A stretch of DNA of 37,155 nt, taken from contig NZ_QGKL01000002.1 in assembly GCF_003172895.1 (NCBI RefSeq), positions 1 through 37,155 of the forward strand. The letters are read 5' to 3'. The position numbers and the translations under genes are program-made. The DNA comes from Leucothrix arctica (GTDB lineage: Bacteria > Pseudomonadota > Gammaproteobacteria > Thiotrichales > Thiotrichaceae). The notes below the pieces were generated by a model. The model worked only from the letters and a program-made list of their open reading frames with translations, was not told the DNA's origin and did not search any database. Of the stretch, positions 25,781-36,985 are shown in pieces. The stretch's first letter is position 1, and the number at the start of each line of letters is the position of its first letter.

Positions 25781-26374
25781 TCACTGATTAACGTTTTGAG
25801 CAAACAACTTGTTCTCAAACCGCTCATGCGTTAATTCAAACTTATGTTTCTGAGCCGCTATCTCTTTACTTAACCGTCTCGTTGCTGTGATCTCAAGGGT
25901 CTTTTCTTCGGCACCTTTGCCAAACAAGCCAACATGAAATGTCAGTCCGCTGCTATTAGTTGCAGTATCCTTACTAGCTAATGTAAACCGTCCCATAATG
26001 ACCAACTGCTTACTGCCAGCCTTTGGCACTATATGCGGTACAACAGGCGTTAACAAGAGTCCTTGCAGCGGTCTTGCGCCATCGTTATCAGTTAGCGCCA
26101 CCTTCTCTTTAATCTCCTTAATAATATCCTTGCGATGTTTAGCAAACTCAGTAGGTGATATTTTGCCGTTACCATCATCATCAATATTGTCAAAGGCAGA
26201 CATTGGGACTGACAGCACCATAAAAACACCGCTATCTTTAATGTTAAGTGTACCGTGTTGCGCAACCATCAAATGTGCTGAAGCGTACGGCACGATGGCC
26301 GCACTCAACACTAAGCTGGATAGCAGAGACTTAGCCCAAGAAGAGGGACGTAGGCACTTGCTGTACTTAGTCAT
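25781..26374 (-). CDS. Exported EF-hand protein
   Basis: A 197-residue protein with an N-terminal signal peptide (hydrophobic core about 15-30, cleavage after ASA at residue 33), so it is periplasmic or secreted. Residues 65-76 form a canonical EF-hand loop (DDDGNGKISPTE, with Asp 65, Asp 67, Asn 69, Ile 72 and Glu 76), predicting calcium binding. The rest is beta-rich and not recognised as a named family. It follows the YHYH-domain lipoprotein gene by 27 bases on the same strand, so the two are very likely one operon and act together in the envelope. Confidence 0.8.
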   Translation of the reverse strand: MTKYSKCLRPSSWAKSLLSSLVLSAAIVPYASAHLMVAQHGTLNIKDSGVFMVLSVPMSAFDNIDDDGNGKISPTEFAKHRKDIIKEIKEKVALTDNDGARPLQGLLLTPVVPHIVPKAGSKQLVIMGRFTLASKDTATNSSGLTFHVGLFGKGAEEKTLEITATRRLSKEIAAQKHKFELTHERFENKLFAQNVNQ

Positions 26375-26401
26375 TTTTATTTCCTATTTAGCGAAATAAC
26401 G

Positions 26402-27700
26402 TTACTGAGGAGGTTGGCCGCCCTCTGGAGGACCACCAGCACCTGCGCCTTCTATTTCACCCTTTACGCAACGTTGAAAGTAGGGGTAGCTGTCTGTCGC
26501 AAAGTAATGATAGATACTATTAGGAAATTCAGGTGTCACACCTACGCGACCATTGCATTCATCAAGATCACCCGAGCCTTCCACATATTCCCAGTCTTGT
26601 TGAAATGTTCCCATTTCATAAACATCAAGAGCAGGTCTAGTGTTGCTAACATCAGAGATATGCTGGTAACTACCCGTGATACTTTTAAGCGCTGAGCTTG
26701 AATCAGTCGCATCGGTGTAACCATATCGTGCATAAATAGGGAAACCGTCAGATGCCCAGGCGATCAACGTCATTGTTGAGCTGTTGCCGCCTTGTAAGGT
26801 AATGAAACCTTCTGGCATGCCGTGGTAATGATAAGTGCCGTCTGGTTGAACATGAGCATTATTTTCGTCTGCACCAAAGTCATAACTCGTATGGCCTAGT
26901 GCTTCGATATTCCAGCCACCACTGTTGTCGCCACCGCTACAAGAGTCACCGTAATCTGTGCAAGAGCCGCCAGTACCTGCATCAATCTTCACACCGTTTA
27001 GTACGTAACCTTGAGGACCAGCGCCGCCTCCTAGAGTCGTTGCAACATCTGTCTTATTGGGGGTCAACGTAATGCTAGCAGAGACGGTTTGTTCTGAAAT
27101 CGTATTCGGGTTGGCTGTGTTTGGAAACTCGCCTACTTCATGGTCAGGAATACCATTGGCAACAAGGTCACGCGTCGTGTCTGAACATGTCCAATCTGAC
27201 GTACTCGTTGTATTTACCGAGCTGGACTCATTGAACTCGCTGTAACTGTAGTCGCACTCGATGCCATCCGTTGAGTCTGTGTTAGTAGTACTCGTTGTTG
27301 CAGTTACCGTCACTTGGTCTGTGGTCATATCGATGCCATCACTTACTGCAACTTCAAACGTATAAGTACCTGCTAGATCGGCGGTAAAAGTGGGTGTTGC
27401 TGTCGTCATCGCGTCAAGTACCGCAGTGCTGCTGACGGGCGAGGCGTAAGTTGACCAAGTATAGCTCAGGCTATCACTGTCGGCGTCGTTGCTAGCACTA
27501 GCGTCCAAGTTTACTGTGCTGCCAGTGCTAACGCTTTGATCTACGCCTGCGGATGCCGTGGGTGCTGTATTAGTTGTCGAGTCGTCTGAGGCTGCGTTGT
27601 CATTACTGGTGCTAACACAAGCGCTGATGGCAAAGCTGCTGGCAATCACTAGGCTTAACAGTTTAATTTTATTCGTTGATGGACGCTGAAAGGTATTCAT
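26402..27700 (-). CDS. YHYH-domain lipoprotein with PKD-like domain
   Basis: The start is the ATG at 27698-27700, preceded by AAGGGGAT; a start 11 codons further upstream would place that site inside the gene. The 432-residue product has a lipoprotein signal with lipobox ending ISAC (Cys 28), a Thr/Ser-rich linker, a PKD-like beta sandwich (about 44-135, TASAGVDQSVSTGSTVNLDASAS), then a large YHYH domain with the eponymous motif DGTYHYHG (YHYH at 290-293) and NGVKID. A Gly/Pro-rich tail ends the protein. YHYH proteins are exported and of unknown function, and the His-rich motif suggests metal binding. It is membrane-anchored and paired with the exported EF-hand protein. Confidence 0.85.
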   Translation of the reverse strand: MNTFQRPSTNKIKLLSLVIASSFAISACVSTSNDNAASDDSTTNTAPTASAGVDQSVSTGSTVNLDASASNDADSDSLSYTWSTYASPVSSTAVLDAMTTATPTFTADLAGTYTFEVAVSDGIDMTTDQVTVTATTSTTNTDSTDGIECDYSYSEFNESSSVNTTSTSDWTCSDTTRDLVANGIPDHEVGEFPNTANPNTISEQTVSASITLTPNKTDVATTLGGGAGPQGYVLNGVKIDAGTGGSCTDYGDSCSGGDNSGGWNIEALGHTSYDFGADENNAHVQPDGTYHYHGMPEGFITLQGGNSSTMTLIAWASDGFPIYARYGYTDATDSSSALKSITGSYQHISDVSNTRPALDVYEMGTFQQDWEYVEGSGDLDECNGRVGVTPEFPNSIYHYFATDSYPYFQRCVKGEIEGAGAGGPPEGGQPPQ

Positions 27701-27907
27701 CGTTGTAACTATCCCCTTGTTTATTATATTCATTTTTATAAAGTTGTTACGTTTTCATAATACTAATTAATTTGGATGGAACTAACAAGACTGAAAAAAG
27801 GAGATTGTGTGGATTTTCTGCAGTGGAGGTTATATTTTAGTTGATACGAATAGGGCTTCAGATGGTATTGTTAACCTATACCAAACCATAACTAAAGGAT
27901 TTCTACG

Positions 27908-30408: not shown

Positions 30409-30530
30409 CCCCATTTAGCCATAGACCCTTACTATATGCTAGATAAGGTAAATCCACTTGATATCTGCTGTAAAGTTCCCCGTAAAGACTGCCATTACTT
30501 TTTTCATTTTGGAACAGTCATGTTGGAAGT

Positions 30531-30728
30531 TTGGCAACAACGCTTAGAAGCGCTAAAAGCGAATTTGCGATGTTGACGTTGTTCCGAGTCATGACGTTTG
30601 AGGATTGGACAGATGTGATGTATGAAACTATGGAGCACGAAGACGGCTCGCCTTACAGTTGGTTGTTTTATCTCAGTTTTATCTTCTTCACGACCTTTGC
30701 ATTCTTGAATATGAATATGAAAAAGTAA
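30531..30728 (+). pseudogene. Fragment of a voltage-gated cation channel (pore region)
   Basis: A 65-codon frame opening at a TTG encodes LTLFRVMTFEDWTDVMYE followed by a hydrophobic helix SWLFYLSFIFFTTFAFLNM. That is the pore helix, selectivity filter (TFEDW) and start of the last membrane helix of bacterial ion channels of the Ion_trans (NaChBac-like) family. The voltage sensor, the N-terminal pore helix and the end of S6 are missing and the frame stops a few codons later. The segment before LTLF does not look like the family. I read it as a decayed remnant, though a real small protein cannot be excluded. Confidence 0.6.
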
Positions 30729-30751: not shown

Positions 30752-30802
30752 ACTAAGCGATGACGGTGTCATAGAACCTCAACAAAACCGTCATCGTTTA
30801 GT
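30752..30802. repeat. 16-bp inverted repeat (long hairpin) upstream of btaA
   Basis: ACTAAGCGATGACGGT at 30752-30767 pairs with ACCGTCATCGTTTAGT at 30787-30802 (one G-T pair) with a 19-base loop. It could be a terminator for the upstream remnant, a dyad operator, or a regulatory hairpin. There is no strong T run after it. Confidence 0.75.
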
Positions 30803-30805
30803 CAT
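30788..30805 (+). promoter_or_regulatory. Candidate Pho box upstream of the betaine-lipid operon
   Basis: CCGTCATCGTTTAGTCAT carries two GTCAT repeats exactly 11 bases apart (30790 and 30801), as in the PhoB consensus of two CTGTCAT units split by 4 bases. A further GTCAT starts at 30768, 22 bases (two periods) upstream. The site lies 44 bases upstream of btaA. It overlaps the right arm of the inverted repeat, so the match may partly be a by-product of that repeat. Confidence 0.4.
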
Positions 30806-30849: not shown

Positions 30850-32064
30850 ATGTCTAGCACATCCGAAGCACTTAGAACTGCGGTTCAGCAGCAACCTGTT
30901 TCATCTTTCCAAGGCATACAGCAGCGTATGTTTCGTATTTGGTTTAATAGTTTTATCTATAACCAAATTTGGGAAGATCCAAACTTAGACATGCAAGCGC
31001 TCGACATTCAGCCAGACAGTCAAATACTGACCATCGCATCCGGTGGCTGCAACATTCTGAACTACTTAACCGCATCACCCGCGCGCATTGTTGCTTTAGA
31101 CCTAAACCCTTATCACTTATCGCTGACTCGGCTAAAACTCGCTGCGATGGAGCATTTGCCAAACCACGCTGCGTTTTACGACTTCTTCGGTTATGCAAAC
31201 TTAGATCACAATATCGATCACTTTCAGCGTTACCTAAAGCCGGAGCTGGATGATGAAACGGTGAGCTTCTGGGAAGGGCGTAGCTTAAACGGTAAGAAGC
31301 GCATCAGCATGTTTCGGGATGATTTATACCGTCACACTCGATTTGGTTACTTCATGCGTTTTTTGCACTGGATCGCTCGACACAGCAAGTACCAACCAGA
31401 CTTATTACTCACGGCTAAAAGCTTAGAAGAGCAGCGCGAGATATTTAATATGCACATCAAACCATTCTTTGACAGCAAGATCGTCAAACTCTTGGGCAAG
31501 TTGCCTATCTCTGTGTTTAGCCTTGGCATACCGCCGCAGCAGTATGAGGCGATGAAGCAGCATGGCAATTTGATTCAGCAGTATTGTGACCGTGTGGAGC
31601 GTCTAGCGTGTCAGTTCCCGATTCAAGATAACTACTTTGCGTGGCAGGGTTTCAGTCATAGCTATGATCACGAAAAGCGCAAAGCGATTCCTGACTACCT
31701 TCAAGCGTCCAATTACGAAAAAATTCGTGAGCAGCTCGGTAAGGTTGAAACGCAAGAAGGCTCGATTATTGAATATTTAAAAGAGCAGCCGGCTAACTCA
31801 CTCGACCGATTTGTCTTTTTAGATGCACAAGATTGGATGAGTGATGAGGTGTTGGAGTCGTTGTGGCAAGAAGTGTCGCGTGTAGGTAAAAAGGGCAGTC
31901 GCATTATTTTTCGTACCGCAGCCAGTGAGTCTCCGTTGGAACATGCGCTATCGCCTAAATTGCGAGCTCAGTTTGATTATGACCCTGTGCAGTCTGAAAA
32001 ATGGTTTCAGCAAGATCGCTCAGCGATTTACGGTGGCTTCCATATGTATCATAAGGTTGTTTAG
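30850..32064 (+). CDS. btaA: BtaA: SAM:diacylglycerol 3-amino-3-carboxypropyltransferase
   Basis: A 404-residue DUF3419/BtaA protein. BtaA transfers the aminocarboxypropyl group of SAM to diacylglycerol, the first step of the betaine lipid diacylglyceryl-trimethylhomoserine (DGTS). Evidence: IWEDPNLDMQALD (40-52), close to the family's QVWEDP motif, and a SAM-binding-like segment TIASGGCNILNYL (61-73) then VALDLNPYHL (81-90). Length agrees with bacterial BtaA. GGTGGG precedes the ATG. It is the first gene of a three-gene operon with btaB two bases downstream. A possible Pho box lies upstream, consistent with induction under phosphate shortage. Confidence 0.9.
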   Translation: MSSTSEALRTAVQQQPVSSFQGIQQRMFRIWFNSFIYNQIWEDPNLDMQALDIQPDSQILTIASGGCNILNYLTASPARIVALDLNPYHLSLTRLKLAAMEHLPNHAAFYDFFGYANLDHNIDHFQRYLKPELDDETVSFWEGRSLNGKKRISMFRDDLYRHTRFGYFMRFLHWIARHSKYQPDLLLTAKSLEEQREIFNMHIKPFFDSKIVKLLGKLPISVFSLGIPPQQYEAMKQHGNLIQQYCDRVERLACQFPIQDNYFAWQGFSHSYDHEKRKAIPDYLQASNYEKIREQLGKVETQEGSIIEYLKEQPANSLDRFVFLDAQDWMSDEVLESLWQEVSRVGKKGSRIIFRTAASESPLEHALSPKLRAQFDYDPVQSEKWFQQDRSAIYGGFHMYHKVV

Positions 32065-32066
32065 TC

Positions 32067-32720
32067 ATGGATGCGATGGATGCGGCACAGAAAATGGATC
32101 AGCAGTATCGTTATCAGCGATACGTTTATGACCTGTCACGGAAGTATTACCTGTTAGGTCGAGATACTTTACTTAGTGAAATATCTGTGAAAGCAGGGGA
32201 GCATGTATTAGAGGTCGGCTGTGGCACAGCGCGTAATCTGATTAAACTATCGAGCATGCATCCTGAGGCCAAGTTATACGGATTAGATGCCTCCCAGCTC
32301 ATGCTGGACTCAGCGTATGAAAAAAGACAATTCCAAAAGACGAATAACATCGCTTTAAAACAAGGCTTGGCGCAACAAGTCACACCTGAGCAGTTTGGCG
32401 TGGAGGGCGGCTTTGACCACATTGTTTGTCCTTATGTATTATCGATGATTCCAAACTGGCACGAAGTGATTGAGCAGGCTATAAAAAATCTAAAAGTAGG
32501 CGGCTCGTTACATATCGTTGATTTTTCAGATCAGTCCGCCATGCCGACATGGTTTAGTAAATTGCTATTAACGTGGCTGGACTGGTTCAACGTTCATCCT
32601 GACCCAAAGCTGCCCGCTTACTTAGCAACGCTGTCGGAGCGCTTGGGTGGTGAACTCACGATTAAACAAATCGCAGGGCGTTACGCTCTGATTGTTCATT
32701 ACACCAAACAGGGCGAGTGA
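32067..32720 (+). CDS. btaB: BtaB: DGTS N-methyltransferase
   Basis: A 217-residue class I SAM methyltransferase, in the right size range and position for BtaB, which trimethylates the amino group of diacylglyceryl-homoserine to give DGTS. Motif I is VLEVGCGTARNL (47-58), followed by the acidic residue Asp 74 in YGLDAS. YRYQRYVYDLSRKYYLLGRD (14-33) is typical of BtaB-like proteins. It starts two bases after the btaA stop and its stop is one base before the next start codon, so all three are translationally linked. Alone, the methyltransferase fold would be ambiguous; the pairing with btaA makes the call firm. Confidence 0.88.
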   Translation: MDAMDAAQKMDQQYRYQRYVYDLSRKYYLLGRDTLLSEISVKAGEHVLEVGCGTARNLIKLSSMHPEAKLYGLDASQLMLDSAYEKRQFQKTNNIALKQGLAQQVTPEQFGVEGGFDHIVCPYVLSMIPNWHEVIEQAIKNLKVGGSLHIVDFSDQSAMPTWFSKLLLTWLDWFNVHPDPKLPAYLATLSERLGGELTIKQIAGRYALIVHYTKQGE

Positions 32721-32721
32721 T

Positions 32722-33528
32722 ATGACGGGTAATCCAAAACACCACTATCGCAGTATTTTTATTTCTGACACACACCTAGGGTCACGTGGCTGTAAAAGTG
32801 CATTGCTACTGGATTTTTTAGAACAGCACGACTGCCAAAATCTTTATATGGTGGGTGATATTTTTGATGGTTGGCGTTTGCGCAAACGTTGGTTTTGGCA
32901 GCCTGATTACGATGACATTATCCAAAATGTATTAGCGCGGGCACAGCGCGGTGCAAAAGTGGTTTACCTCAGCGGCAATCATGACGGCTTTACGCGTAAT
33001 TTTACGGGTCACAGCATGAGTAAGATTGAGCTAGCTGATGAGTGCATTCACATTACGGCTGATAATAAAAAAATGTTAGTTCTGCACGGTGATCGTTTTG
33101 ATGGTGTAGTGAAGTTTCCTGCATGGCTCACTAAGTTGGGCGATGCCGTTTATGAAAACTTGGTAATCGTGAATCGTTACTACAATTTACTACGTACACG
33201 GATGGGGTATCCTTACTGGTCACTTTCGGGCTATATAAAAGAAAATACCAAGTCCGCTGTTCAGTATATTGCTGCTTATGAAGAAGCCTGCGCAAAGGAA
33301 GCACGACAACGTAATTTTGATGGCGTGATTTGTGGTCACATTCACCATGCCGCGATACGTGAAATTGACGGCATTATGTATTACAACGATGGTGATTGGG
33401 TGGAAAGTTGTACGGCCTTGGCTGAAGATTATGACGGTCAGTTTCACCTGATTAATTGGGCAGAGCACAAACGCAAATTATCAACAAAGACCAGGCAAGA
33501 TAAACAGAATGATACAGTTACGGCATAA
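32722..33528 (+). CDS. plcP: PlcP-like metallophosphoesterase (phospholipase C)
   Basis: A 268-residue calcineurin-type phosphoesterase of the LpxH-like superfamily. Metal ligands are visible: ISDTHLG (Asp 16, His 18), GDIFDGWRL (Asp 46), GNHD (85-88), LHGD (121-124) and GHIHHA (205-210). Annotation as UDP-2,3-diacylglucosamine diphosphatase is likely by default, but the WRLRKRWFWQ and YNDGDWVESCTA segments match the PlcP group, which hydrolyses phosphatidylglycerol or -ethanolamine to diacylglycerol during phosphate starvation (known in Sinorhizobium and marine bacteria). Being in one operon with btaAB strongly supports that it supplies diacylglycerol for DGTS. The frame extends upstream, but the ATG at 32722, one base after btaB, is the start. 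Confidence 0.82.
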   Translation: MTGNPKHHYRSIFISDTHLGSRGCKSALLLDFLEQHDCQNLYMVGDIFDGWRLRKRWFWQPDYDDIIQNVLARAQRGAKVVYLSGNHDGFTRNFTGHSMSKIELADECIHITADNKKMLVLHGDRFDGVVKFPAWLTKLGDAVYENLVIVNRYYNLLRTRMGYPYWSLSGYIKENTKSAVQYIAAYEEACAKEARQRNFDGVICGHIHHAAIREIDGIMYYNDGDWVESCTALAEDYDGQFHLINWAEHKRKLSTKTRQDKQNDTVTA

Positions 33529-35434: not shown

Positions 35435-35466
35435 GCTTTCTATAACAATAAATATTGGAATGTGAT

Positions 35467-36005
35467 ATGTCTGAAATTACTCCAGAACAAGTCGATTTAA
35501 GCCGTCATCTTATTAAAAATGGTCCAAAGTTTAGATCTCATACCATTGTCTTTGAAAAGGACACTGCCCACTTAAAACCCACCTTTTCATCACTGATTTT
35601 TTGCTTGGTTTATGTGGCGGTTGGACTATTTTTATTAGGTCTTGCAGCAGTGGTTTACGTAAAAAGTGGTCAGCTAGATTTGATCTTATTTTTGAGTATA
35701 TTAGGGACTGCGATTGGGACGTTTGGGATTACGCTGTTGCAGCCGTTTGTGAAGTACTCATTCTTTGATAAACAATCGGGCAAGTTTCGTAATCATTCTG
35801 ATCGTTCACTAATGCTTGAAAACATCCTGTCGTTGCAAATCACTAACAAGATGATCACGAGTAAGCATGGTTTAGCTTACCCTTGTTACGAGCTCAATGT
35901 GTTAACTGTTTAGATCCAACTGGTTATGGGCTTTCTAAATTTGATAAACTATACCATGCTCGTCAAGTGATGAAAGATCTTTTAAACTCTGGAAAGCAAA
36001 CATGA
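35467..36005 (+). pseudogene. Small two-helix membrane protein, probably frameshifted near its end
   Basis: The main frame 35467-35913 (148 residues from the ATG at 35467) encodes a charged N-terminus, two membrane helices (LIFCLVYVAVGLFLLGLA and LILFLSILGTAIGTFGITLL) and a cytoplasmic tail ending CYELNVLTV, after which it stops. In the next frame an open segment of about 30 codons continues (NCLDPTGYGLSKFDK to LLNSGKQT) and ends at a TGA at 36003-36005 that overlaps the transposase start as ATGA. I favour a one-base shift near 35905-35915 that split one gene. Alternatives are truncation by the insertion element, or a sequencing error. Function unknown. Confidence 0.55.
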
Positions 36006-36985
36006 ATGTTCATCGTAACGCTCGAACCACTCCTAAGACTCGTGAAGAAATTCATGCCAGTAAAGGCCATATGACCATTGATGTGGCAGCAAAGCACTTT
36101 AATGTAAGTCGTGGCACGATTATAAAGTGGCGTAAGCGTAAGAACTTCAATGATAAATCTCACCGACCTAACCGGTTGAACACCGCTTTGTTACCCGTTC
36201 AAGAAGCGATTATCGTTGAGCTCCGTCGCACATTACTATTAACACTGGATGACCTTTTGGTGGTGTCGCGCGAGTTTGTTGATAAAACACTCTCTCGATC
36301 CTCCTTACTTCGTTTACTCAAACGCCATGGTGCTAACCGTCTATCCCAGCTTTATGCAGAGCAGTCAGAAAGCTCAGGGGCTAAGAAGCCTAAAACCTTC
36401 AAAGATTATGAGCCTGGCTACCTTCATGTAGATATTAAGTACCTTCCCAACATGCCTGATGATACGCAAAAACGTTATTTATTAGTGGGCATTGATCGTG
36501 CGACACGCTGGGTCTATATGGAAGTGATCACCGATAAAACAGCGAAGACAGCCGCCAAATTCATCAAGACACTAGCTAATAAGTGTCCTGTTAAGATTAC
36601 AAAAATACTCACGGATAATGGGAAAGAGTTTACTGACCGCTTCTGTGTCACTGGCGAGCGTGAACCCACAGGCAACCACTTATTTGATAAAATGTGTGAC
36701 TCATTGACAATAGAGCACCGTTTAATTCCAGCAAAACACCCACAAACTAATGGCATGGTGGAACGCTTTAATGGTCGAATATCACAGGTGATTAAGTCCA
36801 CCTACTTTGCTTCTGCCGAAGAAATGGAAACAACGCTAAAACGTTACTTAATCACGTATAATCACCACGTTATTCAAAGAAACCTTGGACATTTGACCCC
36901 TATTCAAAGTATGAAGCAGTGGCAATTAGACAAACCTGATTTATTCAAAAAGAAAGTTTACAACCACGCGGTTCTCGACACGTAA
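36002..36985 (+). CDS. IS481-type DDE transposase
   Basis: A 327-residue integrase-fold transposase. The N-terminal helix-turn-helix (about 22-55, MTIDVAAKHFNVSRGTIIKWRKR) binds the element ends. The rve-type catalytic core has the DDE residues Asp 144 (HVDIK), Asp 205 (LTDNGKEF) and Glu 254 (NGMVERFNGR). The start MNVHRNARTTP and lack of an orfA/orfB frameshift fit IS481 rather than IS3. All catalytic residues and length look intact. I could not find matching terminal inverted repeats on either side; the right end may lie outside the window. Confidence 0.9.
   Translation: MNVHRNARTTPKTREEIHASKGHMTIDVAAKHFNVSRGTIIKWRKRKNFNDKSHRPNRLNTALLPVQEAIIVELRRTLLLTLDDLLVVSREFVDKTLSRSSLLRLLKRHGANRLSQLYAEQSESSGAKKPKTFKDYEPGYLHVDIKYLPNMPDDTQKRYLLVGIDRATRWVYMEVITDKTAKTAAKFIKTLANKCPVKITKILTDNGKEFTDRFCVTGEREPTGNHLFDKMCDSLTIEHRLIPAKHPQTNGMVERFNGRISQVIKSTYFASAEEMETTLKRYLITYNHHVIQRNLGHLTPIQSMKQWQLDKPDLFKKKVYNHAVLDT
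36002..36985 (+). mobile_element. IS481 family insertion element (ends not defined)
   Basis: Only the transposase gene is supported. Flanking sequence shows no clear inverted repeats or target duplication, so the true limits are unknown and extend past this interval. Confidence 0.55.

Follow-up and report, generated by a model that had tools for sequence, protein, structure and literature searches.

The closest described relatives of the system treated here are the plcP-btaA-btaB clusters of Phaeobacter MED193 and several other strains (Sebastian et al. 2015, PMC4796936). According to the passages of that paper on MED193, deletion of plcP leaves no detectable diacylglyceryl-trimethylhomoserine (DGTS), and complementation with plcP restores it; putative Pho boxes are also described in plcP clusters. 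PlcP has another partner in a plcP-agt operon reported for Pseudomonas aeruginosa (PMC8528852) and in type Ib methanotrophs, where plcP is described as lying usually just 5' of agt, type I methanotrophs being Gammaproteobacteria (PMC9239053). The present analysis concerns a stretch of 37,155 nucleotides from Leucothrix arctica (contig NZ_QGKL01000002.1, positions 1 to 37,155; hereafter the window), which carries btaA, btaB and plcP in tandem on the forward strand with intergenic gaps of 2 and 1 bases (Table 1). These genes very probably constitute a phosphate-regulated operon for membrane-lipid remodelling, by which phospholipid would be replaced with DGTS under phosphate shortage.

The window has the same three families at one locus as the MED193 cluster, which is of 'type 1' and in which the replacement of phospholipid by DGTS is reported as proven by knockout and complementation (PMC4796936). 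However, plcP precedes btaA and btaB in MED193, whereas plcP is the last gene in the window. MED193 is also an alphaproteobacterium, whereas the window comes from a gammaproteobacterium and the role of the genes is predicted here from homology. The plcP-agt operons, as described for P. aeruginosa and the methanotrophs, follow the same principle in that PlcP makes diacylglycerol from which a partner makes a phosphorus-free lipid, but that partner is a glycosyltransferase producing glycolipids, in contrast to the BtaA and BtaB of the window and their betaine lipid. Sinorhizobium meliloti has a BtaA homologue on pSymB with 42.8% identity over 96% of BtaA and a methyltransferase gene directly after btaA, but the sole PlcP match in that record is about 390 kb away from btaA.

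An earlier sequence-only reading of this DNA had described the three-gene unit, its products and its gammaproteobacterial origin, all of which hold: the layout was recovered as described, the identities are supported by family matches, orthology, a tree and motifs, and the source is a member of the Thiothrix family, within the Gammaproteobacteria. The phosphorus-sparing role proposed in that reading is likewise favoured by homology and by a Pho-box-like site. Its statement that the steps were known only separately does not stand, since the plcP-btaA-btaB cluster of MED193 was already published (PMC4796936), nor does the novelty that it saw in a gammaproteobacterial link between degradation and synthesis, given the plcP-agt operons (PMC8528852, PMC9239053). 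Three points are perhaps new: plcP comes last, this order recurs in two deep lineages of BtaA, and four of ten btaA-bearing genomes of the family lack plcP. Gammaproteobacterial btaA-btaB-plcP loci may already be among the strain-by-strain contexts in the supplement of PMC4796936. A search of the open literature gave no paper joining betaine lipid with Thiothrix.

The source genome (4.75 Mb in 44 contigs, 99.58% complete) has a single BtaA-family match. The window BtaA fits PF11899 (DUF3419) over positions 3-385 of 385 with an E-value of 3.5e-104 and 349.5 bits, where the cut-off is 28.2, and residues S64, G66-C67-N68 and D84-L85-N86 are invariant in all 14 aligned rows. No BtaA relative was found when solved structures were searched by sequence. 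Characterised BtaA enzymes transfer the 3-amino-3-carboxypropyl group of S-adenosylmethionine (SAM) to diacylglycerol, and by analogy the window protein would make diacylglyceryl-homoserine.

BtaB matches generic Pfam models of SAM-dependent methyltransferases (best E-value 3.9e-17) and is 51-76% identical to the btaB products of three family loci (alignment A5). A homologue follows btaA in most loci examined, and all 25 chosen btaA-linked methyltransferases outside A5 reach at least 188.9 bits on a model containing the window BtaB, these controls being proteins previously picked up by BLAST with that same protein. A point against the assignment is that BtaB-type methyltransferases resemble many others: there are 26 NCBIfam matches, and the 25 listed are all far below their cut-offs. 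The name btaB is therefore based on context and orthology. By analogy with characterised homologues, the window BtaB would trimethylate diacylglyceryl-homoserine to DGTS.

The third gene product matches the calcineurin-like Pfam models Metallophos and Metallophos_2 with a best E-value of 2.5e-10. PlcP and LpxH belong to a common calcineurin-like superfamily, and the two best NCBIfam matches of the window protein are LpxH models. The protein could be suspected of being the LpxH of the organism, an enzyme of lipid A synthesis that merely adjoins btaAB: a comparison with solved structures gave LpxH for each of the eight best matches, and public annotation points the same way. The S. meliloti homologue, 45% identical to the window PlcP over 93%, is annotated as UDP-2,3-diacylglucosamine diphosphatase, and so are the homologues in 24 of the 30 listed plasmid records; six records have no annotated feature there. 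Hits H14-H30 and H32 are examples of such LpxH-annotated homologues on plasmids.

However, on the two LpxH equivalog models the window protein reaches no more than 48.8 and 40.5 bits, far below the respective cut-offs of 134 and 190.35. A separate lpxH with an intact open reading frame (ORF) of 242 amino acids is present in the source genome (C41:7931-8656; 302.8 bits against the cut-off of 134), and its product is 23% identical to the window PlcP. Phylogenetic analysis of 55 PlcP and 12 LpxH sequences split the two groups with a Shimodaira-Hasegawa-like approximate likelihood ratio test (SH-aLRT) support of 100, and the window protein falls in the PlcP clade, outside that of LpxH. The tree was built with a quick method and no bootstrap; from the 71 PlcP and 20 LpxH rows, 16 and 8 respectively were excluded, intended as near-duplicates, and the 16 include by mistake the PlcP of G097 (L069/L098), which has no other copy in the tree.

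PlcP was taken to be defined by calcineurin-like motifs with GNHD and by a position in the tree apart from LpxH. The window protein has complete DxH, GDxxD, GNHD, HGD and GHxH motifs, and D16, H18, D46, D49, GNHD (85-88), H122, H206 and H208 are kept in all 14 aligned PlcP rows. The LpxH of the source genome has E at position 49 and a GNRD motif instead. Among all rows collected, GNHD occurs in 71 of 71 PlcP sequences and GNRD in 19 of 20 LpxH sequences; because the remaining LpxH-like row, L041, also has GNHD, this motif is not proof by itself. When 57 genomes of relatives were searched with the window PlcP, 11 matches (the window included) had at least 42% identity, and the remaining matches listed had at most 34% with E-values of 9.9e-8 or weaker, which leaves a clean gap. 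The third gene was thus rejected as lpxH on its sub-cut-off scores, the separate lpxH, the split in the tree and the GNHD motif. The condition that the earlier reading had set for its own refutation, a phosphoesterase clustering with true LpxH in a genome with no other lpxH, was thereby checked and does not apply. As far as sequence goes the LpxH identity is refuted, and we regard it as having almost no probability. The phosphoesterase is PlcP, for which homology predicts hydrolysis of phospholipids to diacylglycerol. Its gene could also start at TTG 32692, which would give a protein of 278 amino acids and an overlap with btaB.

The three reactions and their order are modelled on characterised homologues, and a single transcript with translational coupling is presumed. 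When phosphate is scarce, phosphorylated PhoB would bind the box 5' of btaA, and the three genes would be transcribed and translated together. PlcP would then remove the phosphate-bearing head group from phosphatidylethanolamine, phosphatidylglycerol or phosphatidylcholine, yielding diacylglycerol and a phospho-head group that could be salvaged for its phosphate. BtaA would join the 3-amino-3-carboxypropyl group of SAM to the diacylglycerol, and BtaB would methylate the amine of the resulting diacylglyceryl-homoserine three times. The product, DGTS, would serve as a phosphorus-free zwitterionic stand-in for phosphatidylcholine or phosphatidylethanolamine.

The first step of this scheme is suggested by a Pho-box-like direct repeat, CCGTCAT-N4-TAGTCAT, upstream of btaA. 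A Pho box was defined as two CTGTCAT repeats at a period of 11 bp in front of the first gene, and the consensus used for scoring comes from the part of PMC8528852 that gives the P. aeruginosa Pho box, CTGTCATNNNNCTGTCAT. The score of the window site is attained by 0.43% of the window's 70-bp segments. The evidence used is a position-specific comparison across relatives and not a general scan of the window: in all ten family loci, Pho-box-like direct repeats with 10-12 of 14 positions precede the start of btaA by about 60-80 bp. The strongest case is G004, with four such repeats in phase, and the weakest is L018, whose score of 10/14 is attained by 3.2% of its background segments. The source genome has one PhoB above its curated cut-off, and Pho regulation of the operon through PhoB binding is predicted.

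Several observations weigh against regulation by phosphate. The window site is degenerate, matching just 11 of 14 positions, and its first half is overlapped by an inverted repeat, which may terminate transcription arriving from upstream and may be responsible for some of the likeness to a Pho box. When the whole window was scanned for the motif, allowing three mismatches at most, matches were at chance level (37 against 40.2 expected). Genome-wide, CTGTCAT-N4-CTGTCAT with up to two mismatches is modestly enriched, with 36 sites against 20 in a reversed control, and six of the eight sites inspected have no Pho gene evident by eye. Such findings would fit a situation in which DGTS is made mainly outside phosphate starvation, either constitutively or under another stress, while PlcP recycles phospholipid during growth. 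However, a similar site is found at about the same distance in all ten family loci, the other two inspected sites lie just 5' of a PstS-type gene and just 5' of phoX, and putative Pho boxes are described in plcP clusters of other bacteria (in passages of PMC4796936 and PMC8528852). DGTS synthesis mainly outside starvation is thus considered quite unlikely.

Another possibility is that PlcP serves mainly in phosphate salvage, that the diacylglycerol for BtaA comes mostly from PAP2-type phosphatidate phosphatases, and that the adjacency of the genes is a regulatory convenience. BtaA was found in ten of the 36 family genomes that were searched, not all of which are complete, and six of these ten have the order btaA-btaB-plcP: G000, G004 of the same genus, and G007, G014, G019 and G025 of a second genus. 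The other four (G011, G028, G030 and G035) have btaA-btaB, and their genomes gave no PlcP-grade match. This speaks for salvage and against remodelling by the three genes together, because PlcP is evidently not required for the pathway in these four genomes and tight coupling is not essential for the use of BtaA and BtaB. The earlier idea that coupling prevents a build-up of diacylglycerol is possible. PAP2-type genes are found close to the locus in G004 and G035, and a P. aeruginosa plcP mutant is described as retaining some glucuronic acid diacylglycerol (GADG) glycolipid (PMC8528852).

On the other hand, DGTS is reported as undetectable after deletion of plcP in MED193 (PMC4796936), and BtaA and PlcP tend to occur together in gammaproteobacteria. 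In 370 gammaproteobacterial genomes, 28 were above the curated PF11899 cut-off; the 21 above 320 bits, a limit chosen by us, were used, the other seven having 49-247 bits. PlcP with an E-value of 1e-20 or better was present in 19 of these 21, compared with 109 of the 370 overall, two of them partial (one-sided Fisher p 3e-9, uncorrected for relatedness). We consider the salvage explanation unlikely and prefer the remodelling operon, in which PlcP would supply the diacylglycerol for DGTS.

The link between plcP and the bta genes varies in Gammaproteobacteria and beyond. Among the 21 genomes with strong BtaA, seven have plcP within the bta locus and on its strand, including G208 with a GNAT-like gene in the place of btaB, and one has it there in convergent orientation. 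For the study of architecture, 133 loci were chosen for having BtaA, some with short flanks. Fifteen have the order btaA-btaB-plcP (14 distinct), six have plcP-btaA-btaB (one doubtful) and 95 have btaA-btaB alone. L159 duplicates L021, L160 duplicates L025, and L165 was removed from the plcP-btaA-btaB group because its phosphoesterase has just 86 bits, so that five of six were kept.

A BtaA tree of 73 rows separates two deep lineages with a support of 100. The lineage of the window also contains alphaproteobacteria, Acidobacteria, Planctomycetes, Verrucomicrobia, Desulfovibrionaceae and the Thiomicrorhabdus group. The other consists of 15 rows, in this sample from gammaproteobacteria only, which are 26-30% identical to the window BtaA. 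The order btaA-btaB-plcP is found in both lineages and at least six changes fall on the starred branches, thus plcP was added to or removed from the locus on several occasions; gains and losses are indistinguishable in this quick tree.

Other genes of lipid metabolism accompany btaAB in relatives of Leucothrix. Close to the locus, G004 and G035 carry genes for an Acetyltransf_5 (OlsB-type) protein, a glycosyltransferase and a PAP2 protein. A glycosyltransferase-like ORF, identified by eye because it resembles that of G004, stands directly after btaB in G035, in the place of plcP; for locus L023 the replacement of plcP by a glycosyltransferase-like ORF is noted. The neighbourhood of btaAB in these relatives resembles an island for making phosphorus-free lipids. 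A pstS-type ORF, confirmed with Pfam for L018 only, faces the operon in all four plcP loci of the Thiothrix type (g2; L018-L021) and also in G030, which lacks plcP.

A variant of the cassette was found in Thiomicrorhabdus (L192, L218, L229 and L234) and in G208, which have btaA, then a gene of about 365 amino acids instead of btaB, and then plcP (convergent in L229). The profile of this GNAT-like protein was run against 60 genomes from the order of G208, which we take to be Thiomicrospirales, and gave 34 matches spread over 33 of them. The gene adjoins btaA in all 30 loci inspected out of these 34 matches, five of which (L270-L273 and L294) repeat loci examined before. Within the 1.5-kb flank plcP is present in 18 of the 30, on the same strand in 13 and on the opposite strand in five; the other 12 could have plcP further off. 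A search with a single BtaB protein gave weak methyltransferase matches only, in two of five genomes. A 16-row BtaB profile found no BtaB-grade protein in the 60 genomes; generic methyltransferases in 30 of them reached at best 77.9 bits, compared with the values of the 25 controls given above.

PF13480 (GNAT) matches 11 of 14 GNAT-like members at an E-value of 0.01 or better, the best being 1.3e-7, and the member that is fully shown is slightly below the curated cut-off with 20.7 against 22 bits. An AlphaFold2 model made from four sequences was too poor for use (mean predicted local distance difference test score, pLDDT, 47.3), and a profile search of solved structures with the GNAT-like protein gave nothing convincing (best E-value 0.27). 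With not quite even confidence, btaA-X-plcP may be read as a modular phosphate-starvation cassette in which the middle gene sets the lipid: BtaB would lead to DGTS, and the GNAT-like protein to a diacylglyceryl-homoserine (amino)acylated on its amine, an undescribed phosphorus-free homoserine lipid. The open-literature search gave no report of an acylated homoserine lipid, nor of betaine lipid in connection with Thiomicrorhabdus. It is in the replacement of btaB that novelty could lie.

Several other features surround the operon in the window. An 80-residue open frame at 30486-30728, directly 5' of btaA, is an apparent remnant and matches only the C-terminal part (177-224 of 241) of the PF00520 ion-channel domain, with an E-value of 9.6e-12. 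An integrase-core (rve) transposase-like gene at 36002-36985, close to the contig end, is preceded by an ORF of 152 amino acids with no Pfam match (35455-35913). A gene for a YHYH/PKD-domain protein lies on the reverse strand at 25784-27733, followed by a small-protein gene with weak EF-hand matches.

Table 1. Positions of the operon, its upstream elements and the related loci discussed in the text
Feature	Locus	Position	Strand	Description
btaA	window	30850-32064	+	404 aa; predicted SAM:diacylglycerol 3-amino-3-carboxypropyltransferase
btaB	window	32067-32720	+	217 aa; predicted SAM-dependent methyltransferase
plcP	window	32722 (ATG) to 33528 (stop)	+	268 aa; calcineurin-like phosphoesterase, predicted PlcP-type phospholipase C
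Pho-box-like direct repeat	window	30788-30805	+	CCGTCATCGTTTAGTCAT; 45-62 bp upstream of the btaA ATG; 11/14 consensus positions
Inverted repeat	window	30758-30796		CGATGACGGT ... ACCGTCATCG; perfect 10-bp arms, 19-base loop
GNAT-like gene after btaA	L192	9268-10437		
GNAT-like gene after btaA	L218	9243-10373		
GNAT-like gene after btaA	L234	9311-10426		
GNAT-like gene after btaA	L229	9281-10372		
GNAT-like gene after btaA	L095	7439-8533		
Second BtaA lineage	L086-L094, L096-L099, L104, L133			own BtaB; plcP follows in four loci
Lipid-gene neighbours of btaAB	L017	1955-4524		OlsB-type acyltransferase, glycosyltransferase, PAP2 phosphatase
Lipid-gene neighbours of btaAB	L023	3123-4907 and 6986-7783		OlsB-type acyltransferase, glycosyltransferase, PAP2 phosphatase

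The findings have a practical side: public annotation commonly labels PlcP as LpxH, the lipid A enzyme, and a warning against this is warranted. The Thiomicrorhabdus variant predicts a new membrane lipid, a claim that can be put directly to the test in bacteria that are culturable, with type strains of Thiomicrorhabdus among the records. The linkage of phospholipid degradation and betaine-lipid synthesis appears as a recurring solution, with plcP repeatedly gained or lost at bta loci in two deep BtaA lineages. For Leucothrix and its relatives, the operon would extend a phosphorus-saving strategy known from marine and soil bacteria to the Thiothrix family of sulfur bacteria.

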